Assembly: GCA_916610825.1 (NCBI GenBank)
Contig: OU744446.1
Span: 3,667,001 to 3,731,000 of the forward strand
Length of the DNA stretch: 64,000 nucleotides
From: Haliclystus octoradiatus
Taxonomy: Eukaryota > Cnidaria > Staurozoa > Stauromedusae > Haliclystidae
Reading direction: 5' to 3'
The notes below the pieces were generated by a model. The model was given only the letters and a program-made list of their open reading frames with translations, did not search any database and was not told where the DNA came from. Below are positions 2,111-55,345 of this stretch, one piece after another. A program made the position numbers and the translations under genes. The stretch's first letter is position 1, and each line of letters opens with the position of its first letter.

Positions 2111-5100
2111 CAAAGTATAGTTTTGCGTCGGACAGGGTCGAATTTTGCTATAGCCGGCCATTCATATATAATGGTAAATTCCAAGAATATGTCTTGCGCT
2201 TGTTATGCTGAATTATCCTTGATGTTCCAGAATAGGATAAAGTCTCAGAAACTGTATAACAATACATATATATTTTACTTTTCATTTTATTTATTTTCGC
2301 ATTCTTCTTTATCTTCTTCTGTGAAATAATACGTAAGCAGTTGCATGAATTCATTAACTAAAATAAATACATAATAAAATAATTTATGTTAACTACGTCC
2401 TACATATTGGAGATGCAAACATGCAAATGATAATAAGATTCGATTTTAATATTGATTTTAACGGTAAAATATGATCTACTTTTATTACTTCTATATTTCT
2501 TCACAATTACAAACTTCACAATTACTTTGTAATTGTCTCAGCAAAACAATGGAATATGTATAAACGGCATGATAATCTAGCTTATATCATATAGTCAGTA
2601 AACTTTCATGGAAAATATTTGTAAACACAGAAAAACCTCAATAGTTGGATAACCGAGTTACCTTTAACAACGCATACGCCCAATATAAATGAAGTAGCAA
2701 TTAATGTAGGTCCAGTACTGGACCTTGGTTGATAAATTTTGCAGATCACTAAATAGCAAAAATAATTAAAGATTTGTTGTACTCTAAGAACATGTATAAT
2801 GTAAGTCCTTGAATATAAGAAGTCTAGAACATGGACATATCGTCTGAACAAACGTGTGGCCATCTCACTCGAAGAAAAGAGACTCTGTCGAGAAAATACC
2901 GGAAATAAAGAACGGATGGGAAGTACTATCACGTTTTTTAGGCTTCGTGTTTTTTTAAGTTGAAGGATGGTTAAATATTTTGCTTCTTTCTATGATATAC
3001 TATATATATGTCCCTCTTTCACCCATTTTATTTTCTATACCACAAAGAAGTCCAGAAATCACGTACAGTTCAGACATATGTAAAAAAGAACTTATGAAAA
3101 GGACACTTCATGACACAAACACTACCATAACATACTAACTGTCTTGTCCGTCCTCGCCCACGACGAGCAAATTTAAAAGTCTGGAAAAACTGTTACTGTC
3201 TTATGTTTACTTTACTAATGTTTACATTTCCAAAATCGGAATATTCTTGGGTAATCCTACTACTAAATATACTCGTATAAGTTTGAAAAATAAACCCTTT
3301 TTAAAAACGCGCCGCTTTCGTTAACGTTTACGTTTCATGTAACAAATGATCATAATATTGTACAAGCTGCATGCTAGCTATAGGAAAATGTCTGGAAATT
3401 AGCTATGCAGTCAAAGTTACGAGCAGTAGAGCCAACGAGAGAAATTTCGGGCCCCAAAGATTTCTAAAAACCAACCCCAAACAAATTTTACGCCCAAAAA
3501 TTTGTTCCACTTATACATATAGACTCTGCAAGCGTCAAATTTGGATCAGGTCCTGGTGCAATTCCACGGCTAATCCTTCTCTCAGCGGCCTTGGTTAATA
3601 CTATAAACACTCAAACAGTGAAACATTATAGAGTGGCACGTTTAGTGTTAAATCGTATGTGTTTATGCCTGGTGGTATTCCATTCAAATACTGCAGGTGG
3701 CAAACTGAAAAACAATCTTGAAATGATTTGACATGATCTATAGGTTTTTCGTTTAGAAATCGGAAATAGCTCAAAGAAATAGAAACCATTTACAATCACA
3801 AATGAGAATAATAATTTCATTAAGAACATCACATTAATTGTTAGTTATTTTTATACGAATTTACGAAAGCGGTGAATTATGAATTTCTTTAATAGAAATA
3901 TTTCTATATAAGTCATGTCATTAATATATTTTTCTATGATTTTGACGCCAACATTTCATATTATACATCAATTGATTAAATTGGTTTGAAATGTTTATAG
4001 AAATCGCTATGTTACAAGATGTTTGTTTTTATTGATAGCGTTTTCATAAAATATAAAAATTAGCGAATAATACATTACGTTTGACCTTTCGATTTTTTGC
4101 CGGTTGCGGGAAGTCAAGTTTAAATAATTATGTAAACTGTGTTTTTCAAAATTGCATTTATTTGCCCTCTTTTATAGACCTTAACTTTAAACAAAGAGAT
4201 TTCGAAGTGATGTTTTTGTTTTTATCTGGAAAATCATGGGATAGAAATTCTACTTGACTGGAATTAATTTCTGTATCGGTACATATGAGGGAATAATTTA
4301 TTACTCTTACTTTTATTTTTAAAAAGAATATATTGTTTCGTTGTTTAGTTGTAACTTCTGTATACCTTCAAATGTGAAATGTGTACGGGCTTGTTTATTA
4401 CATGCTACATAATTTTCATAAACTAAAAGGTATATGTACCACATTGTTTTTACTTTTTTTAATTGTTGAAATTGTTTTTAACTTTGTTACTTTACTTCAT
4501 CCTTTCGAACTTGTTAGCTTGTTACCAGTTGAGGAAAATTAAGAATTTGCCAAGGCAATATTTCTATATATAGTCAGGTTTTATTTTCTCCGTGATTTTC
4601 TAGATGGAAAAAAATACAATTACTCACTTCGAAATCTCTTTAAATCCTCATACTATGCTGTAACAGAGAGAATATTCATTTTCTTGACAAGTTATTTATT
4701 TACTTTTTACTTGTAGCAAGTTAAATAGCAAGTTAAATAGCAAAGTTATAAACAATTTCGACTATTAAAGTATGTAAAAATGAGCTTCAAGTAACATACT
4801 TTACAGCATAATACCATTATGTACACATTCTTATAGGTATTGCGATGAGGAATGCATGGAATTATATTTCTCTTTGTAACTATTTTGTCCGCTCTTATAA
4901 TTATGGTACGTCACAACTGAACGACAGAATAAAATAGCAAGAATTAGCCTCTTTAAAGAATATTTAACTTATAATTCAATGTTCATTTTCTTGTTTTGAG
5001 TAGAAAACTCTTGACAATTTCCAGCTTTCATGAATTATATAGACAAGATTCCTTGAAATCAGGATACTATTAAGAATATTTGCTTGAACAAGATCAAATA

Positions 5101-8100
5101 TTTCTTGAAATAAGGAAACTAGTCTTACAAGAATAGTCGATATTCAACGTGATTGAAAGCCATATTTTGATCTCATTATCAGACTTTGAAATGTTTGATT
5201 TTTTAAGCATATTCTTTTCTCACCATTATGAATTTATTATGGACATCAGTTTTTAATATTATTTTCAAATCTTAGTTTTAATTGATCATCATCATCATCA
5301 TTTATTCAGAAAACATTATAAATTCTACAACAAAACTATTTTTTCAATGAACTTGATTGATATAATATCGTACACAGGTATTCATTTTTTTTTGCTTAAA
5401 ACAAGACAATATTTCCTTAAAACTAACACATATTATTTCTTGAAACAAAAATATATTAAACTTGTTCAAATTGCTAGAAAATATTTTCTTATTTTAGGTA
5501 TAAATTTAGTTTCTTAAATTATTGTTATTTTTAACTGAAAAATTCTCAAATTTGAGAAACTATATAAATTACGCTATATATAGGCCATGGACTAGTTTAG
5601 GTACAAATTAACTTTCTTAAATTATTGTTATCTTTTTAATTATTGTTTATGTGTAGATTTTGATCGAATTTTTATTATGCATAAAAATAATGTGATCATA
5701 ATTTTTATATAAAAATGTTCAGTTCATATCCTGTCAAATTTTCATTGTAACTAACGGCTCAACCTGCTCAATATTCGCATTAATTACACATGCTTCCCTT
5801 ATCAATAACAGCATACAGTTAAATGTCATATCTATTTGATCATTATTGAAAATTATTACCATACTACACAATTCTATAAAGTCTTGTGTTGTATTATGAA
5901 TATTTTATTAATTATTCATATAAACCGGCAATTAGTTATTTATGTTTAAAATTGTCAACAATTTCTTTTTTACAATAAAGTAAAAACATTATTGCTTCTT
6001 TTGTTGGCGAGTAAGCTATTTAGTAAATCTATAATTTTATATATGGTGTTTATATCCAACGTTATTTGATCTCATGAATTTTCTTGGTAAAGTTTATTTT
6101 AAAATCAAACTACATTAAATATTGGTATCGATTTTGATTGACAGTCAGGAGTATACGTCGTGGCTATTACCATAATTATACCGTTATTTGATCAGTTTCA
6201 ATTAATGATATAGTTACAAGAGCATGTGAAGAAGTCAGTTACAGTTTTAAATATTATTGAGGTAAAGTATATTATTAAGTACATTAATGATTATAAATAA
6301 CATTACTGTTTGATAAGTAATAATTCGTTTATTTCATTATTTAATTTCATATGTATATACTGTATATGTCGATGTAGTTAGGTAGGTAGAGTTTATATGT
6401 ATTTATTATTAACCCATAAATGTTGGCATTTATACAAATTTCTTAGACTAATTTAAAAGTCTTTATCGAGCGATAACATTCCTGAAAGATATTATTTTGA
6501 AGATCAACAGTTCAAAGTGCACTAACTTTCGACCTCAGCAAATCAATTATTATTGCCGTTTTATACTATAATTAATGCAAAAATGTGTACTGAAACTTCT
6601 ACGTATAACATATGCATAAATTAATATATTAGGAAAACATTTTTTCTCACGAGGCTATCTTGTAAGAAAACTTTTCTTAATTCAATTTTTCTTTATAATT
6701 GTTTTTAGAAACACATTTCTCATGTCTAACTTAAGCATTTTTGCTTACATCGATACAAGAATCTTTCAAGACCAAAACTCTTTTCATGTAAAATATTTTC
6801 CCTAGTCTAAAGACATGGGCAAGGTACCTTGAATAACTAAAGGCATTATCAAATAACCATTTTAAATAACTGTAACTGCATCGAAGCTTTCTTCATGTCA
6901 GAAAGAGAGTTTATTATAGGTTCAGTAACATTTTCCTTTTCTAGATGAATTTTGTATAGTCATATTTTTATTTTTGTTAAATTATTTTATTTTCAAGTTG
7001 TTTTGTTTCGAAATTGCGAAACTAGCTCAATTAATATATAAATATATGGCATTTTCATAGGAAATTTTCATACAAATTCTATACCTATTTTCAAATGATA
7101 TTTTCAAATGTTTGTTCAATTTATTTGTTTCAGGAAAAGTTTGGGATAATTAGTAAATTAATAATCAATGGTAAATCATGTTTATATTTGAGGCCAGACA
7201 TAAACCTATTGACTTTTTATTAAATCGATATTAAAGTAAAAGCTTATTTTTAATGTCATGTTTTTCACCTATCGAATCACATTGAACATATACAGTTTAT
7301 AACTGAATTGTGTTTAAATAAGTATTGTCTGTTCGCCAATGGAATAGCAGGTCAACCACGTGACACATTTGATAACTATATAATATTTATTTTACTGAAC
7401 TGTTGTCAATTATTATAATTGTTCTTGTATTTTTAATTCTAGTTCAATTAATATACATTTATATACGACGCTTGACGATTTTATCATTACATTTTGTCTT
7501 GAAAACTATCTTGAAGAGTTGAAAGGTTAGTGGCCATATTATAATATGTCGGATTGATGATCATGCATTATAAATGTCATATAATTTCATGATAAAAATT
7601 GATATGATTTTCTTGTTTTATTATTTTGTTACAAATTTTACAATGTTGTTATGATTATGGTATGTTTAATGCCTTTTAATGAAATCTCTGATATAATGAA
7701 GTGAAAATTGGACCAATTAATTGATTTATAGGAAGAAGATTCGTTTAATATTGAAACCTTAAACTTTTATAAACTATTTAACAATTAGTAGTTTAATACC
7801 TTATATCTCGCCTTCGAATAATAACTGTTACATATATACTCCTAAAAATTTATTTTCATTTCAGTTTTAAGGTGAAATTTTCATTTCTATAATAATCCTA
7901 TATTGTTTGATATGAAAAAGTTTGATAATTAGAACTAAAATAAGTTAAATAACTGGAGGCTAAAACCTTATATATCAACATAAATGAGGAAAAACGAGAA
8001 TTGATACGATATTAAATATTGTTTTTGAATATTTTTGATAGATGCTCTAATTGAAATTATATTCGAAATCTTGATTATTATAAGATCCATTTTCTATAAA

Positions 8101-8458: not shown

Positions 8459-8748
8459 GGCAACACAAGGCAACACTTAAACACAGAAAATACAACACTA
8501 GCACACAACTATCCAAACACGTTTGGGATTTAAAAGACAAAAACATCACATACAAAATCGAATGGTCAGCCATCGCTAATGCAAAAGCATACAACAACAT
8601 CTCGAAAAAATGCCATTTATGCCTCTTAGAAAAATATCATATTATATGCGCAGAAGAACCAATAATAAACAAAAAAACTGAATTAATATCTAAATGTCGT
8701 CACGAAAATAAATATTACCTGTCCAATTTTAATAAATCAAAAACATAA
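8459..8748 (+). pseudogene. C-terminal remnant of a Penelope-type GIY-YIG endonuclease
   Basis: The open frame runs out of the left repeat arm. From 8459 it reads TQLSKHVWDLKDKNITYKI, then KKCHLCLLEKYHII, then KKTELISKCRHENKYYL, ending at a TAA at 8746-8748. The pattern LSKxVWxLKD / CxLCLxEK / ELISxCRHxNK is the conserved C-terminal part of the GIY-YIG nuclease region of Penelope-like retroelements. The GIY-YIG motif itself and the reverse transcriptase are missing, so the copy is dead. Family assignment is by recognised motifs, not by a search. Confidence 0.75.
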
Positions 8749-11683: not shown

Positions 11684-12205
11684 AGTTGTTGTTGTTGTTG
11701 TTGTTGTTGTTGTTGGTTTATTTGCCAAAAAATATAATATTGACTGGAATATAAAGGAAAGCTTGACTTTCACTTACATATATCCTTTAAATACAAAAAG
11801 TTGTTAATTAATTGAATATAGTTCATACATAATAATACTAATAGACTTTGCATAAAGCACTTAAATCTTGTTCATCCAATTTTGATTTAAAGCATCGTAA
11901 TGTTTTACTTGTGACAGTATGTTCGGGTAAACCATTCCACCACGGAATTACTCGATTAACGAATTGAAATTTGGTGACATTTAGCTTACAGGATAGCGTG
12001 TTTGTTGGCTGTAGCTTTAAGGAATTACCTCGCATTGAGTATTTATTCTTAGAAAAATTACAGAATTCTGTTACATTTAAATCTACGAGGTTGTTTATAA
12101 TTTTGAACATCATAATAAGATCTTGTTTTATTCGTCTTAATTCTAAAGAACTAATGCCAAGATAAACTAAACGATCTTGATAAGCCTGTCCGTAAACATG
12201 ATTGA
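11684..12205 (-). mobile_element. Non-LTR retrotransposon C-terminus with (CAA)n tail
   Basis: The minus-strand frame from about 12200 reads YQDRLVYLGISSLELRR, then DLIMMFKIINNLVDL, then NRVIPWWNGLPEHTV and CFKSKLDEQ. This is the classic end of a CR1/Jockey-type pol ORF (RLxxLGLxSLExRR...DLIxxxKI...WNxLPxxVV). The ORF ends at 11838, followed by a short 3' UTR and a (CAA)n tail at 11684-11716 (GTT on +). It is 5'-truncated; this part of the frame has no stop. Confidence 0.85.
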
Positions 12206-12684
12206 CGTGGCATATATGCCTAGTTCGTCTTAGTTAATCCGATGCCGGGATCCAATGTCGATATATCAGAAATAAAAATTTGAAAAAGTATCAAAATTGA
12301 TGTTATAAAACCCCTAGTGGATGCTTATGGGATGATGTACAAGTGGAGAGATGCTATATTGATAATTTGTCAAAGTATTTGATTGTAATCACCAAATTAT
12401 CACCAACTGTTTTATTTTTCTATATAATCCCTGCGTCATATTATGAGCAATCTCCCTATATTATCTACCATTTATAATTTAGTTGAGACTCAATATTATT
12501 GGCACGCTGTAACTAAATTACAATTGTTCACGAAATGCGTGCAAAGTCAACAACTATTTTATAACTTATCAGAACGATAATACATTTTTGCATCAATCCA
12601 CTGTGTTTGTTTTACTCTCGCTATCTCGATAAAAATGAAAATTTTGTATAGGTATTTATATTATCTGGTGTGATGACTGGCGTG

Positions 12685-25449: not shown

Positions 25450-25500
25450 CTTTCTGTTTGAAGAGTTCTTAAAGCGTGAAACTATGAGTAACAGAAAGTT
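25450..25500 (+). ncRNA. Decayed hammerhead ribozyme
   Basis: Stem I is eight perfect pairs (CTTTCTGT/ACAGAAAG) and the 3' half is intact: GCGT, GAA, stem III AC/GT, triplet GUA. The core reads TTGAAGA instead of CTGAAGA (C3 to U), and the 5' side of stem II no longer pairs. Same family as the 8.1-9.0 kb ribozymes, probably inactive. Confidence 0.55.
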
Positions 25501-25797: not shown

Positions 25798-28700
25798 ATG
25801 GGTGATTTAGAAATTGATGAACGAGTGCCATCAACATCGAATAGTCCAAACGAAAATATCAGTATGGTTGTCAAACCAAAATTAGAGAATACATTGATAT
25901 CACGAACACATCATTATGATAATATAAATCCAACAAGAGAAAGATATACATCCGAAAATAAAGAACAAACTTATGATGACGAAGATGATGAGGATGATAC
26001 ACATGTTCATGATCGTTATACGCCTCTAACAGTATCTGGTAGTAATGATGGTATAGGTAATGATAGAGATGGACTATCACCTGGTTCAGAACATTCCGTT
26101 GCTTCTTACGAATGGTCATTTGAAGAACAATTTAAACAGGTATCAAATTAATAGTTATAATCCTCATATTTACGGACTATTACTCGTAATCTTTGAGTAT
26201 ACTTTTCTATATTGCTATACATATAAAAATTGAGTATTTTTATTGATATTTTTGCTATATATATATATACATATATATCAGTTAATTTGGGGTTTATTAA
26301 AAGACATGTTCGATAGTAATATCGTTAAAAACCTGAATTTGAACTCTGTATTTTATTGTGGTTTCTCAACTTTACAACGAAGTTGTAACAATTTGTTCTG
26401 GTAAACCTATAGTATATAGCTAATTCATTTAAACTCAGTTAATTAATATCTCAATCCCTTTTACTGTCCCACCTTGCTTAATTAAAATCCATCCCTTGTA
26501 TGTAAAAGCAGCAATTATATAGATATCAATTTTTCTAATGTGGTTTTAAAAACAGCAAATATCTATCACAATATAAACGAGAGTTACAAATTATATCATT
26601 TTGGCAGAATCTATACAAATTGTTGTCTATTTTTATGTATCTGGCCTACGAATTTGACTTTTTGCATTGTAATTATGTAACGGCTTACGCCAAATTTGTT
26701 TACGAGTAGTATAGAAACATGTATTTGGATATACTATAAAAACATGATAAAATAATAGTGAATAATATTCTCAAATGATAGGATACGAAAAATTGAAGTC
26801 ATTGAAATACTTTTGGCTATGTCATTGAAATACTTTTGGGTATGTTTTTGTATTTAGTGGTTAATGTATAATTTGTTTTATTCTCTCGCAGCTTTATGAA
26901 CTAGATTCTGATGGTGGGAGAAAGGCGTTTCTTGATGATTATTTTGATTTCATGAAAAGAAGAGGTAGGCTTTTATGAGGTTTTAAAAACGTTTAATATC
27001 ATTGTTCATTGAGGTTAATATCAACTATACATTATCAAAATAGTTTAATGGTTAATTGTTATATATTTTACAGACATATTTAATACTAACAATCTGTGGC
27101 ATTATTTGAATCTGCTACTCATGTTTGAAAAGGGGGGATATCAAACTGCCACGTACTAAAGTTTAAACATGTATAATTTTAAGCAGCTTTCATACAACGC
27201 CCAGTGATAAGGTGCGGAAGAATACGCATGAGATTTTCTTGGTTACATGAAGGTTTTAATGTAATGTGAGCTCTCGTAAATTATCCCTATATATAATTGA
27301 CCATGTGGCTTATTACGGACTATCGGCCGGGACTGGAGTTGGTTGTTTCTATTGACTAATGTATATAATGAAATAATATATAATCTACATAATGATAGAT
27401 GGGAAATAGTGCGTGTTAGAACATTATTATCGTCACGGAATCAACGAAAAGAGTGCAAAATCTCTCATGATACATTTTTTAAATCCAAATGATTAAAATG
27501 ACTTTCCTGTAAGACTAAATCAATTGAATAAAACAGGATATAAGATTTTTTATAATGAATACTTAATTAATTGGTGTTAACTAAAGTAATGCCTTGAGAG
27601 TTACAATTTATGGAAATTCACTGAGAGATAAGAAAAAAAGATGGCGCCATATACACCCATTCTAATATGCGATTTATATAGATCTTAGACTAGCCGACAT
27701 ATGTACCGTATTTTGTACTATTTGACCTATATTTCAATATTGTTTAATATGATATTAGAAGTTTACCATATAAGCTAGAAGATTTAATCAAATTTCTGAA
27801 TTAGCTACCACCTAAAAATGACGTAATTGATTCGGCGCCTTGCCTATTAATGGTTCTTTTGAGTTACATGGTGCCGTCATTTTGAATTCGTCAGCTTAAG
27901 TTTATAATGAATATACCACTAAAAAGTCATCTAGATCTCATTAAAATTTATAGTTTGATGTAATTGTCTCAGATATATATTTTTTTGAATTTATAATCAT
28001 CTGTAATAGATTAAATTATTATTCAAATATTTATTCATAAATGAGATTTTCCATCTAGACTTAAGTACATTGTATGAGAATGAAGATTTGTCTTTAGTGT
28101 CTGAGATCGTTAGGTTTTATAGTATTTAAACCAAAAAACTGTTTAATTAATATTAAAGACTATCTTTGTTCAAAAAAGACTTATCCGCTATGAGTTATTC
28201 GATAAATTTATAGCCGTTATACATCAAAGCTTCAAACGCTGTCTTACATGATTTTCTTTCACTCGAAAATAAAATACAAAAACTAAATGTCAAGTTTAAC
28301 ATATTTGACTCGTATAACCCGGCTTTTATACTTATCCATGTTTTTAAAAACACCCGCAAATTGATATCAATTTTAATTTTAATCGAGATATAAAAGGTGT
28401 AAATAAAAGTTTATACCTACCTATAAGGTCTCCAGACCGGGGCTCGATTCCTCGTCCTGTGCACACGTGTTCTTCGTATGACTGTAAATTCGTGATGTCC
28501 CTCAATAAATAAGCACTTGTGTTTACGAAGTGACTGTCAATCACAAATATATGTGATTGAAAATTTAATATTATTATTATACTATAAACTAAATGCTTCT
28601 GAGCTTAAATAAATACTTAAATTACTGCTGCGTCAACGATGCAGTATATATTTTGTCGGCAGAACCTTCTTCGGTCTCGAGTTGTTCTTAATTTTGAACT

Positions 28701-31700
28701 TCATTTTTTTTATATGTAATTTCTTATTATCTGTGTTTCGGTTCCATTTAGTTTTTTTGTTAGTTTCTCAAGATATTTCATTTGGTTGGAGAATATCAAT
28801 TTGATTTCTGAAATTTATTTGAAAACATATTGGTTATCGAAATGTTCTCCTTAACTTAGCTCTTCAAAATTGGACAATTTGAGTATGTAGGTGTTCATAG
28901 ACGCTGAGCTGAGGAAAACAACGTGTGACGTGAAAAATTTGAAATTTGCTCAATTCTATATTATATGAGAGAAAATTTGGAGTCTTCTTTGAATATTAGT
29001 GAATAATGAAATTCTGTTTTATACTGATTCTATTTCTCAGTACTTCTGACGGATATTTTGTCCATCTTGATATATATATATATATATATATATATGTATA
29101 ATAATAATAATAATGTTGATTTAATGAATAAATAAATTTATTTATTAAGAGCAAAACATCAATATAGTGCTCAATACCGGTAAGCAGAGCTGTATAGATA
29201 TAAAATAAGAAAAGAGACGTTTTCTCCGTTACTCGAAGTTTCGCGCTGTAGCGCAAACCGTCTGAGGAGCGCTACAGCGCGAAACTTCGAGTAACGGAGA
29301 AAACGTCTCTTTTCTTATTTTATATCTATATATATATGTATATATATATATTAAGCAAGAATAGAGATACTATATAATTAAAAATGATATGATCTGTATA
29401 TACGATATGATTATATAAAAAATAATGCATAGTTCACCTTCCATAAGCCCTAGATTTTACTATGATATACATTGTATCCTAAAGTAATATGGTTTTATAT
29501 CTGATATTCTTTTGTATAAAAAATATATCTCATTGTACGTATTCCGTATAACAAAGCCATTTAAAATTGTTGTCGTTTCAACGTGCAAAAGCTATAAGTA
29601 CTAACCCATATAGGCACTGATCGTATTGTCTATTGTTGTCTGTCTATATGGATATTATTGTATATATCATTTTTATCGATTCGATTTGAAATCTAACAAT
29701 AGTGTGGTCAGATATTACTGTATCGACTCAACAGGGGTCGTTCAGCCATCTAATTAATTGGTCCTCGACGACATGATCATCAATTTTGTAGTGACTTTAT
29801 TTTTTTATATAATCAGACGGGGGTAAATAACTGATATTTTCCTATTAATTTGTATTATAATGTATTGTATTTGTGATTTTTTAGGTACCCCCGTCAGTCG
29901 GATACCCATCATGGCAAAACAAATTCTTGATTTATTTCAATTATATAATCTTGTTGTCAGACATGGTGGTCTTGTTCAAGTAAGTGATGATATTTATTAT
30001 ATCTTTGTTGTTATTATTACCTTTATGAATATTTATAATTAGCATGTTTTTTCAATTAAATTGTACAATTTGCCATAAGGCTAAATTCTATCTTGTAAAT
30101 TGATGTAAAGATGTTAAACAAAATATCTATATAACGAACTAATAATTAATAACATAGACTTCTGTGTGGGAAACTTTATTATCTTATCATCTTACTGAAG
30201 ATTAACGTATAAAACTTCTGATTAATGAATATACTAAACTACTATTCTTTATACAATATTTTAAAAATCTCCATCTTTTAAAGCAAAACTCAAAATATCC
30301 TGATCTCAATTTGAAGTATATATATATAATATGTATACCATGTAAATTCTGTAACATACAAAAGTAAATTAACAAATTAAATTTTATTTGATCTACTATA
30401 TATAAACATTTTCAAGATATTGTTCATTTAATAATTTTAATAAATTGAGACGGTCTTTATCAATCTTTATCTAAACATACATTATGATATTAGGATTTTA
30501 AATTTTATCAGATTATAATAAATATACGGATTGAAGTCAATGCGATTATTCTGTTTTGTTAATATGATCTTAATATCTGGTTAGATGAAGAAAAAAAAAC
30601 TTTACATGCCATGTGATATAGTATTTAATCTTTATTTTGTACTCTGTCTCTATAGGTTATAAGAAATAAGCAATGGAGCAAGGTCACTAAAGGTTTGCAT
30701 CTACCCACATCAATTACAAGCGCTGCATTCACTTTAAGAACTCAGTAAGTACAGTAGTATATGAACAATCAAATTATCAATGTATAATATACCAGCAATG
30801 TTTTACCCGCGTTGATGGGTTAATTTTGACCGAATTCAAATTACCTTTGACATGAAATTGGATAATACATGAATTTTAATATCAAACAAAAGGAACGAAG
30901 AAATGGCGGTTCCAAAAACCGAAACAAAATCAGTGCGTGAAATGACATTTTCTTTTCATACGCAAAGCAAAATAAAAATTCGGAAGAACAAAGCCAACGT
31001 TAGGTGCAACTATTTGCAATTATCTATCGGGTGATATGTTATTTGATTCATTTGGTTTTGAAATGGCCGAGAACATTTTGAAGAACTATCGCAAACACAC
31101 ACATAGAAAAAGACATTCGCATATGATTTCTTGTATAACGATTATAATAATTAGTTATGTTTGTATTGACTTACACTCTAAAAAGATACATACGTATTAG
31201 GCCAAAAAGATTTATATGCTCGGACCCTTGCATATAGTACGTATACACCGGTACATTTCATTTAATGAAAAATTTTAAATGTTACTTTAAACGGTTACTT
31301 TAAACTCTCTTTAAGGGTAGCTTAGCGTTGATTATGAAGCGAGCCTTTTGATAATTTCCACGTAACACAAAATTAGCGCATTTTTCTTTTCTTCTCTAAT
31401 TAATTAGATTGTTTTGAAATTTAAGCTGATAGGTACTGTGATATATAATCTAAATCCATTAAAAATTATCTGATTCTTTGCGCACCTTGGCTAATACTTC
31501 ATATTGTATTCTCCATTGTTATGCTGTCCGTATTGAGCGACATCCTAGCTAGCTTAGTAAATGCAATCGACCCTGCCTAATATTCCACTGTCGTTCGGAT
31601 GAAAAATGAAGCATTAAACGAGTTGGAATATTAAGCAACATAACGGTTTTAGTGGGAAACATTTAATGATGGGGGATATTAAGCAACGTAACGGTTTTAG

Positions 31701-33827
31701 TTGGAAACATTTAATGATGGGGGATATTAAGCAACATAACGGTTTTAGTGGGAAACATTTAATGATGGGGGATATTAAGCAACGTAACGGTTTTAGTGGG
31801 AAACATTTAATGATGGGGGATATTACGCAATTTTGACTGTAGATTCCACTATTCGGTCTCGTTATTCACGAGGATTCCTGAAATCTAATATTTTTTATTC
31901 TTGTGTTTATTATCTTATAGATATCTTAAGTATCTTTATCCTTATGAATGTGCCATGCATAGTCTATCAACCCCAAAAGAATTACAAGCTGCAATTGATT
32001 CAAATCGTCGTGATCGTTTCTCAACGTTATACCATCCTGAACCATCTATGACGTCACAACGAGATGATCGTTTTCCACCATTTCCAATCAACGGTTATGA
32101 ATTCGGTGGTGTACCTCCATCAGTATTACATCAATCACCACATCACCATCCACTATCAGTAGGTGGTATAAAAAGTGAAGTGAAATATCCATTAAAACGT
32201 CCATTAGATACTGTTGGTGGGCGTGGTTATGATAAATATGGTAATGATAACCCTAAAGTAATTATATTACAAGATGGACATCAGGTACCTGCAGATGGGT
32301 ATGGACAAGATAAACCACCTATTAGTCATTTAAATATGAAATCACCTATTACACATGAAATGGATCCACGTAAAATTAATGAATATGAAATGATGAGACA
32401 ACGTGTACATCATATGATGTATAATGGAAAAGACTGGGATGGAGATATACGTCATGTGATTGAGGAAGAACAGCGTTATCATTATCAACAACATGCTCAT
32501 CGAAATTCTGATCAACGAATTATGTGCAAAGATAAGAATTGTAATGGGGTATGTATTGTAATATTATTCATATCAACCCCGGTAGAAAAGCAGTTCAGGA
32601 GTTCATGTACACCTCATGTCAGGAACGTTACATGACCCAAACATTTCATGAATTTTTCATGAAATTGATCATGAACTATCCGTGAAATCTCATGAACAGT
32701 TCATGAAAATTTGAGCCATTTAATGTTCATGAACTGTTCGTGACCTGTTCATGAACGCCTGAACTGTTCGTGATCTGTTCATGAACTCCTGAACTGTTTT
32801 CGCAGGGGAATAATCGTTTGCATCTCGGTCATTTATGACTTCTAACAACTTCGCACAATGCACGCTTAAGATTTCACTTTCCCATTTGATTTTTGAGGAG
32901 ATGTTTCTGTATTCTCCATTCATCACAAAATACGATATTCAAAACAATAATGACAAAGCATTTTATATGGCCTTCTTGATTCTTCACAAACAATTAATTC
33001 TTAAGCTGGAATATATTGCATCTCTGATAGTTTTGTTATACAGCAAAAATGTGGAGTTAAACCTGTGTATAAAGACCACCATCTTAGAAAGAAAGGTCAT
33101 CTCCCTTTAGTGGTAAAAAATCTCTAACCTCGACATTGGCCGTTATAGACAGGTTTTGCGATATCCCACTGATATAAGTTATCTAATTAGTGATTTCTAG
33201 TCCAATCTCTACTTTTACATTGTGCCTTCCTATGTTACACGGAACCTGCGAGTCTTTAATGTCTGAAGACTGCTCGATAAATGATGATGATAATGGTGTA
33301 ATTGATTGATAAAAGTTTGAATGTATTTCTGAATCGTTTATTATTTTCTTTTCGATTAGGTTGACTGTAAGTACCCTTACCCTGAACGACGTGAAATTCG
33401 ACGCCATCATGGAAGTGCCCCGCCTGCATGTGCATGTAATTACTGTACTGACAAATTATCTCAACGTTATCCTTCGCCTGGTAGCAGATCACGTGACAAT
33501 GATGAATATAGACATTCAGCCGAGGTTTCCCATGTTAATACTATGAAAGAGAGAACAGCTAGTCGATTGGATAGCACTGGCTCTGGTGAAAGATCTCCCC
33601 CGTCCCCTACACAAAGGGTTTCTTCAAATGGAGGCGATAAAAGGAGTACGTCTGTATCCCCTCCAGTCTCAGTATTCAAAGCTCGTATCTCAGATTCAGA
33701 TAAAGCTACACAATCCGATCGAGCTTCACAATCGGATCAAGGAGTATTTATTGCTTTGGAAATAGCTGGACGGATGTATGAAGGATTTGTTCACCTTAAA
33801 GAAAATGAATCAAATCGAAGCCAATAA
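25798..33827 (+). CDS. ARID3: ARID3 / dead ringer family transcription factor (six exons)
   Basis: Sequence-specific AT-rich DNA-binding transcription factor of the ARID3/dead ringer/Bright family, acting in the nucleus. Coding exons by GT-AG and phase: 25798-26139, 26892-26964, 29885-29979, 30656-30744, 31921-32548, 33360-33827; 564 residues. The ARID domain (about 107-235) includes EEQFKQLYELDSDGGRKAFL, FMKRRGTPVSRIPIMAKQIL, SITSAAFTLRTQYLKYLYPY and the extended-ARID block KELQAAIDSNRRDRF. The start is the ATG at 25798 (MGDLEIDER), just after a TTATAG acceptor, so a 5' UTR intron is likely. Acidic and serine-rich N-terminus; the C-terminal GVFIALEIAGRMYEGFVHL matches the REKLES-beta motif. 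An unusual Cys cluster (402, 407, 412, 433, 435, 438) spans the last splice junction. Poly(A) signal AATAAA at 33994. Confidence 0.94.
29193..29330. mobile_element. Perfect 62-bp-arm palindrome in ARID3 intron 2
   Basis: Arms 29193-29254 and 29269-29330 are exact complements separated by 14 bases. The sequence (GAGTAACGG, GCGCGAAAC) belongs to the hammerhead-bearing Penelope-like repeats. The spacer supplies the stem I 5' side and the CTGAGGA core, so only the + strand reading makes a complete ribozyme. (TA)n and (ATA)n microsatellites border it. Confidence 0.85.
29258..29297 (+). ncRNA. Hammerhead ribozyme, intact core, in ARID3 intron
   Basis: Stem I CCGT 29258-29261 with ACGG 29294-29297; core CTGAGGA 29262-29268; stem II GCGC 29269-29272 with GCGC 29277-29280, loop TACA; GAA 29281-29283; stem III AC 29284-29285 with GT 29291-29292, loop TTCGA; cleavage after A29293 (GUA). 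Every invariant hammerhead position is satisfied. It lies sense to ARID3 within intron 2, 588 bp upstream of exon 3, so it would be present in the pre-mRNA. Confidence 0.85.
31628..31822 (+). repeat. 48-bp minisatellite, four units, before ARID3 exon 5
   Basis: Unit TTAAGCAACRTAACGGTTTT...GGAAACATTTAATGATGGGG repeats at 31631, 31679, 31727 and 31775, with a diverged start at 31823. It ends about 100 bp before the exon 5 acceptor. The phrase GGGGATATTAA...GACTGTA also occurs at 37530-37660, so the array probably grew from the end of a dispersed element. Confidence 0.88.
32577..32808. mobile_element. GTTCATGAAC foldback element, copy 1 (ARID3 intron 5)
   Basis: Right end ATGAACTCCTGAACTGTTTT then CGCAGGGG; left end CCCCGGTAGAAAAGCAGTTC, an inverted terminal repeat. 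The interior is packed with the palindrome GTTCATGAAC and variants. It lies 29 bp after the exon 5 donor (GTATGT at 32549), so the open frame that runs on past the donor is element sequence and not protein. Confidence 0.8.
33054..33158. mobile_element. Short inverted-repeat element (TTAAACCTG type)
   Basis: Left end GAGTTAAACCTGTGTATAAA and right end GGCCGTTATAGACAGGTTTT form an imperfect terminal inverted repeat. It resembles the two elements at 57.4 and 57.7 kb. Located in ARID3 intron 5; non-coding. Confidence 0.55.
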
Positions 33828-40312: not shown

Positions 40313-40577
40313 AGGTCCCGGGGGGTTACTCTACTATGACGGCTATAGGGGGATGTGCCACTTATTTTGGGTTCATATTCCAGCTGAGAAAAAACTTTCT
40401 GGGTATGAGATTTAAAAATTTTGCTTCATTTTTGCGTATTTACTTAAAATCAATCAACCTGCTAGAACGTTTGGGATAGCATCAACAGAATTTTTGAAAC
40501 TTTTTGGGTACTTTACCTTTTTCCAAAGTGGCACCCCCCCGTCCCTGAAGAGCTGGAGTTACCCCCCCCCCGGGGGA
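40313..40577. mobile_element. CCCGGGG-ended inverted-repeat element
   Basis: Left end CCCGGGGGGTTACTC and right end GAGTTACCCCCCCCCCGGG are inverted repeats; inside are GGGGGATGTGCCACTTATTT and GGCACCCCCCCGTCCCTGAA. Related copies: 48907-49250, a fragment at 34.8 kb, and possibly 42.0 and 44.5 kb. Non-coding. Confidence 0.65.
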
Positions 40578-46000: not shown

Positions 46001-49000
46001 TTCGGGACATTTTAAAAAGAAACTGGAACAATAAATATGATAGCTTACAAGATCAAGTGTATGCTATCTTGCTCATTATTATATAGTCTGTTGCATACTA
46101 CAGGAAGACATTATTTTGACATATTCATTGTAAACTTTTCAAACTTGTGGAATTTTACGGGATATAAAAACAAGGGAAGTGCAACGTGGATAATTTGGTG
46201 CCCCAAATTGGAAAATTATTTTAGGGAATTGGGAAATGTGATGATTAATGTGATGATGATCAAATTGGAGTTTATCATCAGTTTCGCATACCTAATTGCA
46301 TGTTAATACCTTCTCTAATTCGGGATAATTCTATTTGTATTATCACGAAAAGGATTGGAATAATCTGATTTGTTTAGAGTTTGACGTCAAATCACTTTAA
46401 TTACCCAGAATTATCTTAATCAAAACAATGAAACCTTCAGACTCTGAATTGGCTTATTGAAATGTTACACATACCTGAGCCTCCATTTGATCTTTTGGTT
46501 CCTCGACATCAAGTTCCACAGTCTCCGTTATCATAGGTCTTAAATCTTTTAACTTTTTAATAGCTTGCCCAATAACTAATTTTTCTTCTGATTCTGTCCC
46601 ATAATAACACAATATATCCATGCATAATGTTGAATTTTTTAAAACCATTTCATCAACGTTACGTAGCAAATATTCTTGATTTGCAACTAAATGTTTATGT
46701 GGTAAACCCTGTATTTCAATATTAGTAGTTGGTCTTCTGATTTTATTTTTTGGTAAAATATTTAATTGTGTTGTAATCAATACACCAGAGGTGTCATTAA
46801 ATGCTAACTTTTTATCAATCTTTCGTACAAGATAATAAGGTGTTGTAACATCCGTAGGTATCATATCCCATTCAGAGTATACGGGTACAATACCAAGAAA
46901 TGCATTAGCTGATATATATAAATTACTTAATGATACAACTCTTATATGAAATGTTTTATTTGTTGAATCATATGTTAATTTTAATGTTGTTTCACCTAAA
47001 TCTTTTGGGAATGGTACAATTGGTGTTGTGATACGAAAATTATAATTATCTTGTGAAATTCGTCTGATTTTATCTTTAAATCGTGCACCAGGTAAACTTT
47101 TTGATCTTTCTTTATCACGATTAGTTCCAAAATTTTCAACATTCTGTGATCTTCCTCTTGGTTTTAAATCATATAAATGTTCATCTTTTTCGCTACTTAA
47201 AAATACATCGTCAGCACTGTCACCAGGCGTTTCTTGTTGGGTTATATCTGGTGTTAACCTAGGATCTACTTTATTCCCATATAAAGGTAACTGTACTTGA
47301 CATGCCACCGTTGTTGGACTACAAGTTGGTATAACAAACCTCGGACTATATATTGTATTTGATTTTTTACGTAAAGGAATTTTTTTGTCCAAAATGACAG
47401 AGATTTTTCTTCCAAATTTTTTAATTGATGATTTTCTAGTTTTTTCTTTGTTGTGATCTCGTTTGCATAATAAATATGTTACATAAAATATGCATATTAA
47501 TATAATGACTATTAGACAGCCAATCACAAGCGAGAACAGGTCTATAATAAATAGAATGAAATACATTAGCGAGAGATTAATCATAAATTCACATAATTAT
47601 CAGATCAAAAGGATTTGAAAATAGTCCGAGACAAAAGTAGTAAAAGTTCGTCTGGTGGAATTTCATAAGTAAGTAGCGTCAACACCTATCGGCGGGATGA
47701 TGTATCCAATTTTATCTTTACACGGAAAACCAATTCTATACTAGCTTTCAGTTTTTTATATTACTAAAAGACTTCTTACGACAATAAATAAGCCATTAAA
47801 AAGTGATATGTGTAGCTTATTTCCAAAGTTTTACAACGGACAAATAATTTAATTATTTGATTGTTGGTACGTACGGACGAATAATGATGATTTAGTCGGC
47901 ATTCGTCACTACATTACGAACCAATAACATAATTTGTCCGTACGGAAAAATGATCAAACCAAATTGTTATTCGTACGTACCGACAATTAAGGGTAGCCCT
48001 TAATTAAAGGAGCAAGAATGACCGGCAGGAGCTACTCACTTAGGATCACATGCATGCTTATTCTTATAACACAATGTTCATTATTGACATGAATTTTATT
48101 ACAAATTAGGTCTGTTTGGGCGAAAACCGTACTTATTCGCACTATTGTAAGTAACTATTTTCAACATTTCAGATAGCCTCGTTTAGTGAGAAGTTAACCT
48201 CCTTTTATGTAAGCACGAGTAATATTGTAATAGTTAACCTTTTGTAATGACGTAATAATGTAGTATAAATAGTTCGATTTTGTATTAGTTAGTCAGTTAT
48301 GCCAAGCTACGCCAAGTTATGCGGTAATTTTGTGGAGTGTTGAGCTAACTCCTCATTACAAAGAAAGTAAAGTAAGATTGGTTGTGTTCATTTGTGTGGT
48401 TCATCCAATACTTGATCTTTTGAGTTTAAATAACACATATATTATAAATACAGTCCTCATTCGTAAGAACAAGGTCTACGTATAACAATTGTTTCAAAGC
48501 GAGACGGTTGAATTACGCTACGCATAAATTTAACTTGTGCTCGCAGCGGTCGCCGGTCAATTTTTCCCCTTTAAACCCCACAATTTGACACACAACCAAC
48601 TGATCACGTTCAGAAAAGATTTGGACACACAAGTTGACCAAAACTATAATCAGTTCAAGTTCAGATTAAACCGCGATTTTCTCTCAATCGCTGAAAGTTT
48701 CAGAATGACACATAAAGTATTTTTAAGCTTGTTGTTGGCATAATTAAATGAAAGATTATAGACTAATATCTTGTGATGATATCTACAACGATCGTATAGA
48801 ACTTTTTCCGTTACTCAAAGTTTCGCGCGATGCGCTCATCCGACATTATCTTGTATTTCTTTATTAAATGTAGCAATATTTTGCATACGAATAAAGCCGT
48901 CTGATGCCCGGGGGAATAGCTCCCGTTCTTCAGGGACGGGGAGGTGCAACTTCAGAAAAAGGTGACGTACCCAAAAAGTTTCAAAAATTCTGTTGAGCTA

Positions 49001-50635
49001 CCAAAAAAATTCCAAAAGTTGAAAAATGCTACCCAAAATGTTCCAACAGGTTAATTGATTTTAAGTAAATACACAAAAATGATGCAAATTTGTTTTCAAA
49101 TCCCTTGAAGAACAAAAATAGGATACCCAAAAGTTCCAAAAGTTGAAATATCATACCCAAAAAGATTTTTCTCAGCTGGAAAAATTGACCCAAAAAAGTG
49201 GCACGTCCCCGTATAGCCGTCATATGGGATGGGAGTTACACCCCGGGGTTTGATGATTCGCGCGATCAATTCCGGGTATCGGATCGAATGTTCCTTTATT
49301 AATTTATTTCTATAGCCTCCTATGGCCAGAAATTACCTAGTGGCCCTGATTATATGTATATATATATCTGCGGCTTATCAAATAAAGTTATTTCAAACAC
49401 TGCTTTTGAAATACATCCTCCGATTCCTTTATATCATACCCAATATTTATGAAGGATATAGTTAAAATGTGAATTGTTTGGTGATTATATAAGCTGAACA
49501 ATATATACAATAATTAAATCATGATGAATCAATCAATGTTTCCGTTTAAAACAAACAAATATGACTGATTAATTGTGCCCAATTAATGACATTAATACCA
49601 TGTAGCCAATACAAAATATAATTTACAACAAAACTTTGGTAAAATGTTTGGCCTGTCCTTTTTTGAAAACAATATATGAAGATTATGATTAATAAGTTAT
49701 TACTTATCAAATTTAAGATAAATGACCATGAATGACAGAACAAAAGTGGAAAAATAAAATTACATTACTTAACAAAATGTTCTTTATTATCGGCAAACTA
49801 TAGTACTGTATAGTTTTTATAATAACTCTAAACATTGTATTAGCCCGCGACGCTGTTGACTATATACATATAGGAGGAAAAATCTGTCAGAGCAAGTCGC
49901 AGCTTGAGTGCAATAATCTGTTAATCTTTTGGACAGTTATTGTTTTTAGCCTTCTTGACCAAGCGGAACAAACCTTTGTTTGTAAAAACCAATAATGGGA
50001 TAGCGCTACAAGGACATAAAACTTCCTACTTGGGTACATTTCTCTTACATCATACGATTATAGAAACTTGAGTGACAAATAAAAACCATTGTATATAATC
50101 TAGTAAAAGCAACATGAAAATAATGTTGAGAATCGATTTGTAATACTATTTTTTTTATCAATTATTTTGAAAGTTAAAAGATCATTTTTTAATTTGCTTA
50201 TGCGATGATTTTGATTTCCCGCAAATTTGTATTATGTATTACCATGAAAGACAATGGTGACTGCATGGCTATTCAGATATGAAAGATGTTATTTTTAAAA
50301 CACAATTCATGCTATTATACAGTCTTCTATAATCATTATTCAAACATGAATGAATCATTTTTGGGGGAAAGCTTTAGGTGGTAATCCTGCATTGTTTGAC
50401 TTTAGACATGGTCCATGTGAGTTAAGAAAAATCCGAAAATATTAATATTTTACTTCATCAACTAAAGCGCACAATTCACAATTACTATTTAATTCAAAAT
50501 TATCAAAAACATACGTCAGTTACAATAGCTATAAAAATATGCATGCAGATATTTGCATGATATCAAAACAATTAGAAATATACATTGATAATCAATTTTT
50601 ATTTAATTATGATTATTGAGTTACTTACTGTCCAT
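43100..50635 (-). CDS. Synaptotagmin-like protein with two C2 domains
   Basis: Membrane-anchored tandem-C2 protein of the synaptotagmin family. Exons on the minus strand: 50629-50635 (MDN, tentative), 46475-47541, 44204-44333, 43100-43425; 509 residues. A single transmembrane helix (about 4-27, LVIGCLIVIILICIFYVTYL) is followed by a basic stretch. C2A (about 184-353) starts GETTLKLTYDSTNKTFHIRV and has an unusually long central insertion; C2B (about 367-500) includes LAGTLSVRLEKVTNLLD, NPVFDELFKFSLS and the HWDKM signature. The acidic calcium-binding loop residues are missing in both C2s (for example CYYGTESEEKL, IRHCGVVSKT), so it is probably calcium-independent. An ATG at 47584 is an alternative start, but a TTATAG acceptor lies inside that frame and matches the paralogue's intron position and phase. 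Confidence 0.85.
44465..44700. mobile_element. Possible diverged CCCGGGG-type element
   Basis: GGGGGGAGCTGTAACTACAT at the left and ATCCCCTCGGG at the right bracket an A/T-rich interior with TTTTTGGGT-like phrases, resembling the 40.3 kb element. Located about 130 bp upstream (minus sense) of C2B exon 3 of the synaptotagmin-like gene. Confidence 0.35.
44711..44860 (+). mobile_element. tRNA-derived SINE, copy 4 (diverged)
   Basis: GGGGCCTTAGTGTAGTAGTT, GGGTACAATCCCTAAC (box B) and a degraded core. Shares head order with copy 3; the tail is lost. It lies in intron 2 of the synaptotagmin-like gene. Confidence 0.7.
44905..45058. repeat. Dispersed repeat, second of two copies
   Basis: Counterpart of 34436-34566; it follows SINE copy 4 with about 45 bp between. 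Confidence 0.7.
48113..48471 (+). mobile_element. LTR of a retrotransposon, with adjoining leader
   Basis: A 359-bp block starting TGTTTGGGCGAAAACC and ending AAGAACA, with TATAAATAG (TATA-like) at its centre. It matches 52060-52356 over GAAGTTAACCTCC, TTTTGTAATGACGTAATAAT and CTTTTGAGTTTA. A 68-codon frame at 48537-48743 follows and may be the start of a gag-like ORF, but I see no diagnostic motif. Confidence 0.6.
48810..48852 (-). ncRNA. Decayed hammerhead ribozyme
   Basis: The minus strand reads CGGATGA (core U4 changed to G), stem II GCGC/GCGC with loop ATC, GAA, stem III AC/GT with loop TTTGA, GUA, then ACGG. It is otherwise nearly identical to the 29.26 kb ribozyme. The core change and a weakened stem I should abolish cleavage. 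Confidence 0.65.
48907..49250. mobile_element. CCCGGGG-ended element, longer copy
   Basis: GCCCGGGGGAATAGCTCCCG at the left, GGGAGTTACACCCCGGGG at the right. Inside are several copies of TACCCAAAAAGTTCCAAAAG-like phrases and CGTCCCCGTATAGCCGTCAT. Opposite orientation to the 40.3 kb copy. Confidence 0.65.
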
Positions 50636-52922: not shown

Positions 52923-55345
52923 TTAATCAGCTTTGAGTTCCCGCCACATATCTACCACCATATCAGCTCTAAGATCAGATAAATGAACCAATACACGTCC
53001 AACAACACGATCACGTGACTGTCCAACTCTCATTACCATAAAACACAATGTATATTGCCGTAATTTATGATGTAATATATCTTCAATACGGAATTCTTCA
53101 TTAAATATAGGATCACAGCTACCATTTTGTATCATACTTTTTTGCCATAGAAAATCTTCAGGTACAACACATAAACAAACGTAAAAGTTCATTTCGTCTT
53201 GTGTGTCTGCAGGTAAATCAGCTGCTCTTTTTAATTGTACAATTAATTCCATAGTATCTGCTGCGTATTGTAATGAAAAATTCAAACAACCTTTTGTTTG
53301 TGGCTTACTAGAGGCTAAGTCAGCATCATAACTTATGAATAATTCATCGTTTACAGGAGGTGCTGTAAATGTTGTTACAGGCTGATTTGGATGTGGGAGG
53401 GATGGTTTTACATCGGCTGGGCTAATTTTTCTTGTTTTAGTACCAATATTCTGCTCATCATTTGAAAACATCTCATCATTATCAGAAGAAGTAGACGATA
53501 ATGCTCGTTTGGTAGTTACTAATGGTGATGTAGATTGCCCGTAAAGAGTTAAAGATCGATTGGAATCTGTTAATCCATTTTTAGATTTCATAATTTGTAA
53601 ATTATTTTCATTGAACTCTGATTGATTGTTGCTATGGTAATCATCATGGTATTTGACAGCAACAGCAGGTTCCTTTGCATCGAGATCCATTATATGATGG
53701 TGTACGGTACCTAATGGTGTTGGTACATACGTTAACATATTATGATGTACTTTATTATTACCTTGTTGTATGGCTGTATATGATACAGCTAATGGTGTAT
53801 ATGTTGTTTGATTTGGACCATAAAATGCTAAAGATGCACGTCTATAATTGAAATCTTTCCGTTTCTCATGTTTATCTTTGATGCATCGCATACATATAAG
53901 TGTTAGACAACTGACTAGCATGCATAGAAAACCAGTTGTGGCTAACACTAGCAGAACGAATACCCAAACTAACAAAAAAAATATATTTATTAAAACATTT
54001 ACCTATAGGAAATATATGCAAGAATATTTATTTGATTCAAATTGTTTTTTTACTTGTTATATTTAATTAAGCAAAAATTATTGTGCCACTAATTCGAGCA
54101 TTTTTTCCTCGCAAAATTAAAATCGCTTGAAAATTGAAGAAGAACAATAATTTTTTTGCTTAAACCTAGAAATTTTGGTTCAAAACATGTGAAACAGACC
54201 TTGAATCAAGCATACATATTTTTAAAGACATTAAACTATTTTCGAATAAAAGTAGAATATAATTTTTGGTTCCGTCTTCACTAAAGTCTATTTTGATGGC
54301 AATCACATTTGAAAGTGTTTGTAACGAGGTACCTACAAGGGTTGATCAACAAATTTCCAAACCAAGATTTCTGTAAATCATAATTTTTTGGTTAAAACTA
54401 AACAATATAATAGTTACAGTTCAACTATAGTTCTCAAAATGAACGCAGTTCTGCTGGAACAAGAATAAGCACACTTGTCCACATAGCTAGAAAATATGTT
54501 CTTATATGAAGTACATATTCTCTTAAACTGTGGTTATTTTGAACAGAACAATTCTCAAACCAAGGTTCTCAAATGAAGAAAATTTATCCGATCCTAGACC
54601 ATTTTTTCTTCTGTTAGAAAACTGAAATTTGAGCGCCACAAAAACTATAAGTAACATCTTGAAGAGCAGTTTTTTGTATTCGTTTCTTTGTGGTCAACCG
54701 AAATGAATCATAGTGTAATGATAGCATTTGTAGAGTAACAGTTATACATCATGGTAACAATAGCAGTTTCTTGCCTTGCGGTCGGTCAAACATACAAAGA
54801 AGTAGCGCTACGTACCAAAGAAAACACGGAGATTATATTAAAAATAATATTCTTGATTCAAGGTATATTTTTCTTGATTAATAATGAAACTATCTCGTTT
54901 TTTAAAATCTGAAAATGCTCGAAACAGATACAAAATTGTAACAAGGATTCGCTTATCAAATTATTTCAAATTCTCTCTAGCGGCTTTCATGCTTTTCGGG
55001 TCACTGCCATGCACTGAACATCTTTAATTCAACTAATTGTTAAAATTGAATAAGATTTATACAAAATTCTATACACTTCTTTCTTTTATAAGAATACAGT
55101 TTATAAGAACACTGAGGCTCAAATTGCTAAAAATTTAAGAACAAATCAAGAAAAACATCTCCGAGGCTCAGATTTTTTTCAAATTATTTTCAGAATTCAA
55201 ACTTTTAAATTATATGAATATATATGAATTTCGGTGCCGTGATTTTTAAGTACAAAATAAGGCAAAAACAAGGCATGCGAAAATAAAATAAATCATGTAA
55301 AACATTATTAAATAACAATATTAAATTCCTACCTGGAACTTCCAT
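52923..55345 (-). CDS. Synaptotagmin-like protein with a single C2 domain
   Basis: Exons on the minus strand: 55333-55345 (MEVP plus one base, donor GTAGGA) and 52923-53968 (acceptor TTGTTAG); 352 residues. Transmembrane helix at about 5-33 (WVFVLLVLATTGFLCMLVSC), then a Cys/basic juxtamembrane stretch, a long low-complexity linker rich in Ser, Asn and His, and one C2A-like domain at about 232-350: LNFSLQYAADTMELIVQLKR, AADLPAD, DPIFNEEFRI, ending MWRELKAD at the stop. Synaptotagmin C2A domains end in a similar WRDL. No second C2 follows, and AATAAA lies 10 bases after the stop. The calcium-binding aspartates are not conserved (FMVMRVGQSRDRVVG). It is the tandem neighbour of the two-C2 gene, with the first intron at the same place and phase. 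Confidence 0.82.
54070..55320. other. Intron of the single-C2 gene
   Basis: AT-rich intronic DNA between the mini first exon and the main exon; nothing else recognised. Confidence 0.5.

Follow-up and report, generated by a model that had tools for sequence, protein, structure and literature searches.

A perfect palindrome with a hammerhead motif in an ARID3 intron of Haliclystus octoradiatus, very probably a head-to-head double insertion of a Penelope-like leader

Hammerheads in Penelope-like elements (PLEs), inverted leaders and palindromic junctions are already in print (here and below, statements on the literature refer to excerpts of the cited papers). In bdelloid PLEs the leaders are inverted, one of the two with an optional tail, and palindromes occur at junctions that are mostly head to head (PMC3846280). 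The purified PLE protein PAc, from Anolis, cuts and extends both target strands, with a preference for AT-rich DNA, and initiates reverse transcription at two neighboring positions within its RNA; the PAc hammerhead cut only after addition of its protein (PMC11167929). PLE motifs usually have no helix III according to a review (PMC6155905); more than 6000 type I motifs are reported for one coral, and many of these have the PLE-like minimal form (PMC7229834); template switches have been described for RNA hairpins generally (PMC8794818). Here we analyze a perfect palindrome with a complete hammerhead motif in an intron of the ARID3 gene of the staurozoan Haliclystus octoradiatus, within a 64,000-nucleotide stretch (contig OU744446.1 of assembly GCA_916610825.1, positions 3,667,001 to 3,731,000, forward strand; hereafter the window). 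The palindrome is very probably a double insertion of a PLE leader, head to head, a confidence that covers this identity and not the step by which the two copies were joined.

The palindrome, its hammerhead motif and the host intron

Two exact reverse-complement arms of 62 bp each enclose a 14-bp spacer, just as an initial annotation of this DNA had described, and the spacer does supply the 5' part of the hammerhead. The palindrome is part of a larger feature that extends leftward to about 29097. The locus comprises the following (window positions):

29193..29254, no strand: left arm of the perfect palindrome, 62 bp
29255..29268, plus strand: spacer AAACCGTCTGAGGA, 14 bp, giving the 5' side of stem I and the CUGAGGA core
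29269..29330, no strand: right arm of the palindrome, 62 bp
29258..29297, plus strand: minimal type I hammerhead motif with stems of 4, 4 and 3 bp; predicted cut at 29293/29294
29097..29254, minus strand: inverted left copy of the Penelope-like leader, hammerhead 3' part followed by the long tail (CAGCTCTGCTTACCGG... to (ATT)n)
29298..29330, plus strand: short tail belonging to the right copy; its last bases, TATATCTATA, abut the (TA)n flank
29070..29096, no strand: (TA)n flank outside the left (long-tail) copy, limits by eye
29331..29351, no strand: (TA)n-like flank outside the right (short-tail) copy, limits by eye
26965..29884, plus strand: ARID3 intron 2, host of the insertion
25798-26139, 26892-26964, 29885-29979, 30656-30744 and 31921 onward: ARID3 exons, splice sites chosen manually

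The motif, complete on the plus strand only, consists of stem I (CCGU/ACGG), CUGAGGA, stem II (GCGC/GCGC with a UACA loop), GAA and stem III (ACU/AGU), and thus shows the CUGANGA...GAAA...UH core, the three helices and the open stem I of a type I hammerhead. Its A17 is at 29293, and the cut position had been read correctly. Rfam searches of the window and of the isolated motif returned no hammerhead at the gathering score or at E up to 10; matching an Rfam model is not part of what defines the ribozyme. RF00008 had 0 matches in the species' own genome but also 0 in 14 control genomes, so that this search was uninformative. The matches to microRNA and small RNA families around the palindrome (Rfam, E up to 10) all scored under the gathering thresholds and were taken for generic hairpin matches, and a scan of viral_contigs for the hammerhead motif gave 0 matches.

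Because the protein joined from the exons matches human ARID3A (2kk0) with an E value of 4.2e-60, the gene can be named ARID3/dead ringer, and the palindrome with its hammerhead does lie in sense orientation within intron 2, as had been proposed. Directly before exon 5 of this gene, the intron contains an open frame in which a GFSGKHLMMGDIKQ-like unit is repeated in tandem about four times (31618-31833, plus strand).

The repeat family, its unit and its head-to-head pairs

The locus belongs to a repeat family that we observed directly in the species' own genome (G000, 262 Mb in 33 contigs). The 76 bp of spacer and right arm recur letter for letter at at least 41 other places (among 51 matches listed, 40 of 339 candidates being scored), and the pattern CTGANGAN{6,20}GCGAAACTNNGAGTAACGG gave 314 matches per strand, compared with 0 + 0 for a reversed control. 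The cores listed fall mainly into two families, A (GCGCTACAGCGC) and B (GCGTCTTTACGC). Over nine typed distinct cores, the stems pair in 93.9% of cells, versus 19 to 40% when slid. Covariation is weak, with one pair altered on both sides (C-G to U-A, stem II), a two-sided count reached by 443 of 500 shuffles and a covariation score reached by 39 of 500, partly because stems I and III were in large part prescribed by the patterns used for collection.

One locus, L061, contains the element unit: two hammerhead cores on one strand (2931 and 5473, spaced 2542 bp apart) with two open reading frames (ORFs; 3108-4220 and 3965-5287) between them, that is, the leader-ORF-leader (partial tandem) arrangement with a hammerhead in the leader that characterizes PLEs. 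The left copy at the window (29097-29254) is 97.5% identical to this leader over 160 columns. The unit of about 2.5 kb with ORFs, together with the small number of tandem neighbors given below, led us to reject a metazoan retrozyme.

The element protein can be assigned only tentatively, by characteristic motifs; family models and folds gave no decision. In a second locus, L027, 462 residues are open up to the locus edge and include FDIENFYPTI, VTMGSYDGAE and YRDD, which we take to be reverse transcriptase (RT) signatures; the L061 frame continues into NYIGLTEGAFKDRFTKHK, presumably GIY-YIG-like. No name for the protein came from Pfam, NCBIfam or PHROGs, the NCBIfam RT match being below cut-off for the element protein and absent for L027. 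A phmmer search of PDB returned nothing for P0002 and four unrelated matches for P0003 (E 0.48 to 0.86). Both structure models were poor; the Foldseek matches obtained with them numbered 847 at E up to 10, among them weak fold matches of the element protein to RT palms, and 0 at 0.001. A separate ORF at locus L008 (1980-2831, minus strand) does match Pfam GIY-YIG above cut-off (E 2.2e-5); it does not align to the family-A protein, for which reason we discarded it as support for that protein, and it perhaps represents another Penelope-like lineage in this genome. Within the window, a fragment at 8461-8730 (plus strand) is 48% identical over 91 amino acids (E 1e-23) to the endonuclease-like C-terminal end of the family-A protein and is, judged by this similarity, an older Penelope-like remnant.

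The arrangement of the copies was likewise observed directly in 61 fetched loci of families A and B. Of 40 same-family neighbors within 3 kb, 29 are head to head, and the remaining orientations include 5 ++ and 2 --. The 52 distinct family-A copies in these loci differ by their 3' side, which is long in 27 (the leader runs on to (ATT)n), short in 24 (ending at (TA)n) and otherwise in 1. Among 23 fully classified pairs, 21 combine a long with a short tail, 2 are long/long and none is short/short, an excess with a probability of about 3e-5 if tails were chosen independently at the frequencies of these pairs, when about half would be expected to be long/short. The window pair is of the prevailing kind, with a long tail on the left and a short one on the right, and so shows a trait typical of PLEs, two leader copies in inverted orientation of which one bears a tail. 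(TA)n is found at both of its outer ends, and a target-site duplication would be indistinguishable within (TA)n. Arms within a pair are more similar than those of shuffled partners, values as low being reached in 13 of 2000 shuffles for family A and 40 of 2000 for family B.

Close palindromes occur at 37 loci (16 of family A, 21 of family B). The commonest family-A center is GCGCTCCTCAGACGGTTTTATTCATATGAATAAAACCGTCTGAGGAGCGC, and that of the window, GCGCAAACCGTCTGAGGAGCGC, is the same sequence minus 28 bp; with the center 28 bp shorter, the full motif is kept on one strand only. By eye, the left core has been lost by truncation at 4 of 16 family-A loci, the window included, and at 5 of 21 family-B loci, and the window's plan of one truncated and one complete motif is found elsewhere, for example at C8:18922602 and C8:11028909 (the latter of family B). 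The incompleteness of the minus strand at the window is therefore one of several asymmetric centers, and the perfect arms are the stretch common to both copies.

These pairs bear on two further explanations of the palindrome. Perfect palindromes are a known type of artefact, and the initial annotation had itself raised the possibility of an assembly artefact; hairpin read-through, in the assembly or in a read, would not be expected to yield outer ends that differ (long versus short tail), and many loci have palindromes with differing centers, so that we reject this explanation as extremely unlikely. In the second, the left arm would have arisen later, when a replication template switch copied a single leader in inverted orientation; the perfect arms, the short spacer and the GCGC flanking the spacer, which could guide a switch, would suit this. 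However, 37 close palindromes of two families are present in the genome, and the left copy includes leader sequence (29097-29192) that is missing from the right copy and so was not copied from it. We regard a template switch as contradicted and very improbable.

In 12 of the 52 family-A copies (loci L002-L061), one of them doubtful, only ATATGAATA is kept upstream of the hammerhead, as if the element RNA began there, which makes this a possible transcription start of the element. The window also contains a decayed relative and a possible second one:

48803..48844, minus strand: decayed hammerhead leader with a CGGATGA core, from a related family
25453..25494, plus strand: possible leader, more decayed (TTGAAGA ... 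GTGAAACTATGAGTAACAG), seen by eye, with a weak match of 83% over 23 bp (E 1.4)

Another repeat has two copies in the window (40359-40568 and 48898-49200; about 72% identity over 185 columns plus a second block), the latter adjoining the decayed hammerhead at 48844. Two long ORFs on the minus strand (46454-47596 and 52923-54002) are synaptotagmin-like by eye, with a Pfam C2 domain in the second only, and an ORF at 11838-12233 (minus strand), with no Pfam match, looks by eye like the C-terminal part of a non-LTR reverse transcriptase.

Folding of the intronic RNA and origin of the pair

The initial annotation had proposed that the RNA has two competing folds, a hairpin and an active hammerhead, and that the hammerhead could cut the intron of the pre-mRNA. 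The competition itself is borne out by ViennaRNA, which gave the palindrome a free energy of -110.6 kcal/mol and a cost of 53 kcal/mol for keeping the hammerhead. When the transcript was grown from 29193, the arms paired with a probability of 0.996 once 12 nt of the right arm were present, before stem III had been made, and the left arm is thus predicted to abolish the hammerhead fold. Removal of the left arm did not make the hammerhead the best predicted fold: the gap to the ensemble was 5.2 to 7.5 kcal/mol, and stem III had a probability below 0.01. Because folding energies ignore tertiary contacts and proteins, the isolated motif may nevertheless be active.

With the left arm predicted to abolish the hammerhead fold, cutting of the ARID3 intron is not supported by these models, and we consider it unlikely. 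A domesticated ribozyme comparable to the hammerheads conserved in amniote introns, cutting ARID3 pre-mRNA under control of the hairpin, would fit the complete motif in sense orientation within an intron, and intronic hammerheads are conserved elsewhere (PMC6155905). However, the motif is present in high copy number with letter-for-letter identity to other copies, and the hairpin, better by 53 kcal/mol, would form before stem III is transcribed. Because of copy number and folding we reject a gene-specific ribozyme switch, to which we assign almost no probability; instead of a device of this gene, the hammerhead belongs to a dispersed retroelement leader with the same architecture at other loci.

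As for how a double insertion of PLE leaders could arise, the element enzyme would cut AT-rich DNA, and reverse transcription on the leader RNA would begin at two nearby internal sites. Both cDNAs would then be extended toward the 5' end of the RNA and meet head to head, their overlap yielding the perfect arms; the left copy, from the far start site, would have the long tail, and the right copy, from the near site, the short one. The loss of 28 bp of the center, at joining or later, would leave the full ribozyme motif on a single strand. We infer these enzymatic steps and their order from the structure of the copies.

Two-sided starts are modestly preferred to fold-back of one cDNA because the outer ends stop at two recurrent places. 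In the latter variant, which would leave the PLE identity unchanged, the cDNA at the 5' end of the template folds back, copies itself and joins the other DNA end via TATA. Self-priming has been proposed for the palindromes of bdelloid PLEs, there on an antisense template (PMC3846280), and would account for symmetric family-A centers such as TATTCATATGAATA and for variants common to both arms of a pair. Why a fold-back copy should end at the short site is not evident, unless TATA pairs with the target and so sets this point, and a PLE protein is known to extend both target strands (PMC11167929). We thus consider self-priming possible but doubtful as the joining step.

Several points weigh against the identification as a PLE double insertion or are subject to bias. 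The descriptor scan, which agrees with the initial annotation in placing a complete hammerhead on the plus strand and none on the minus strand (1 match in the window, 0 on the minus strand; 1 hit per 200 dinucleotide shuffles, both strands scanned), used a descriptor modelled on the window motif itself and is biased to that extent. The loci analyzed were the best-scoring or first-listed ones rather than a random sample, a further source of bias, and the counts of lost cores rest on inspection by eye. In 6 of the 29 head-to-head pairs one tail was unclassified, and although 5 of these fit by eye, C5:2440031 was unreadable. Arms differ by 8 mismatches in one family-A pair and by 12 in one family-B pair, and C1:13661388, counted among the 12 ATATGAATA-cut copies, is a full-upstream variant by eye.

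Comparison with known elements

If the locus is a double insertion of PLE leaders, a striking palindrome with a ribozyme is explained as a normal PLE product and not as a gene switch, which calls for caution, as complete intronic hammerhead motifs in such genomes can be retroelement leaders. The near-strict pairing of long with short tails was not found stated in the excerpts of the literature at hand, from which we do not claim its absence from print; the excerpt of PMC3846280 gives the tail only as optional on one inverted copy. This near-rule might reflect a built-in division of labor, in which a paired PLE enzyme starts one strand per RNA site, palindromic integration being the normal outcome and single leaders being incomplete or trimmed, although we offer this as a speculation that we consider rather unlikely. 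Dozens of identical copies make it testable. Recurrent long/short pairs in a high-copy family thus constitute a natural data set on how PLEs start and join two cDNAs, a step left open, in the excerpt available, by the 2024 PAc paper (PMC11167929).

Two other kinds of described sequence share part of this structure. Metazoan retrozymes (PMC7229834) also have a type I hammerhead in many copies in animal genomes, but they are non-coding tandem repeats of 150-450 bp, whereas the present unit contains ORFs and spans about 2.5 kb, and inverted pairs predominate among the fetched copies. Template-switch hairpins (PMC8794818) are also perfect inverted repeats with a short loop, whereas the arms here are two element copies with unequal outer ends.

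The closest likeness is to the endonuclease-containing PLEs, namely PAc (PMC11167929) and bdelloid Penelope (PMC3846280), with which the family shares a hammerhead in the leader or pLTR, leader-ORF-leader units, inverted leaders of which one bears a tail, palindromic junctions and AT-rich sites. The two reverse-transcription start sites of PAc can be likened to the two tail ends here, which lie 33 and about 131 nt past the hammerhead, as compared with a tail extension of 30-40 bp in the excerpts of both papers. The likely start codon here is, by our reading, about 180 nt past the hammerhead, whereas the PAc ORF starts inside it, and stem III here has 3 bp, in contrast to the usual PLE motifs without helix III (PMC6155905).
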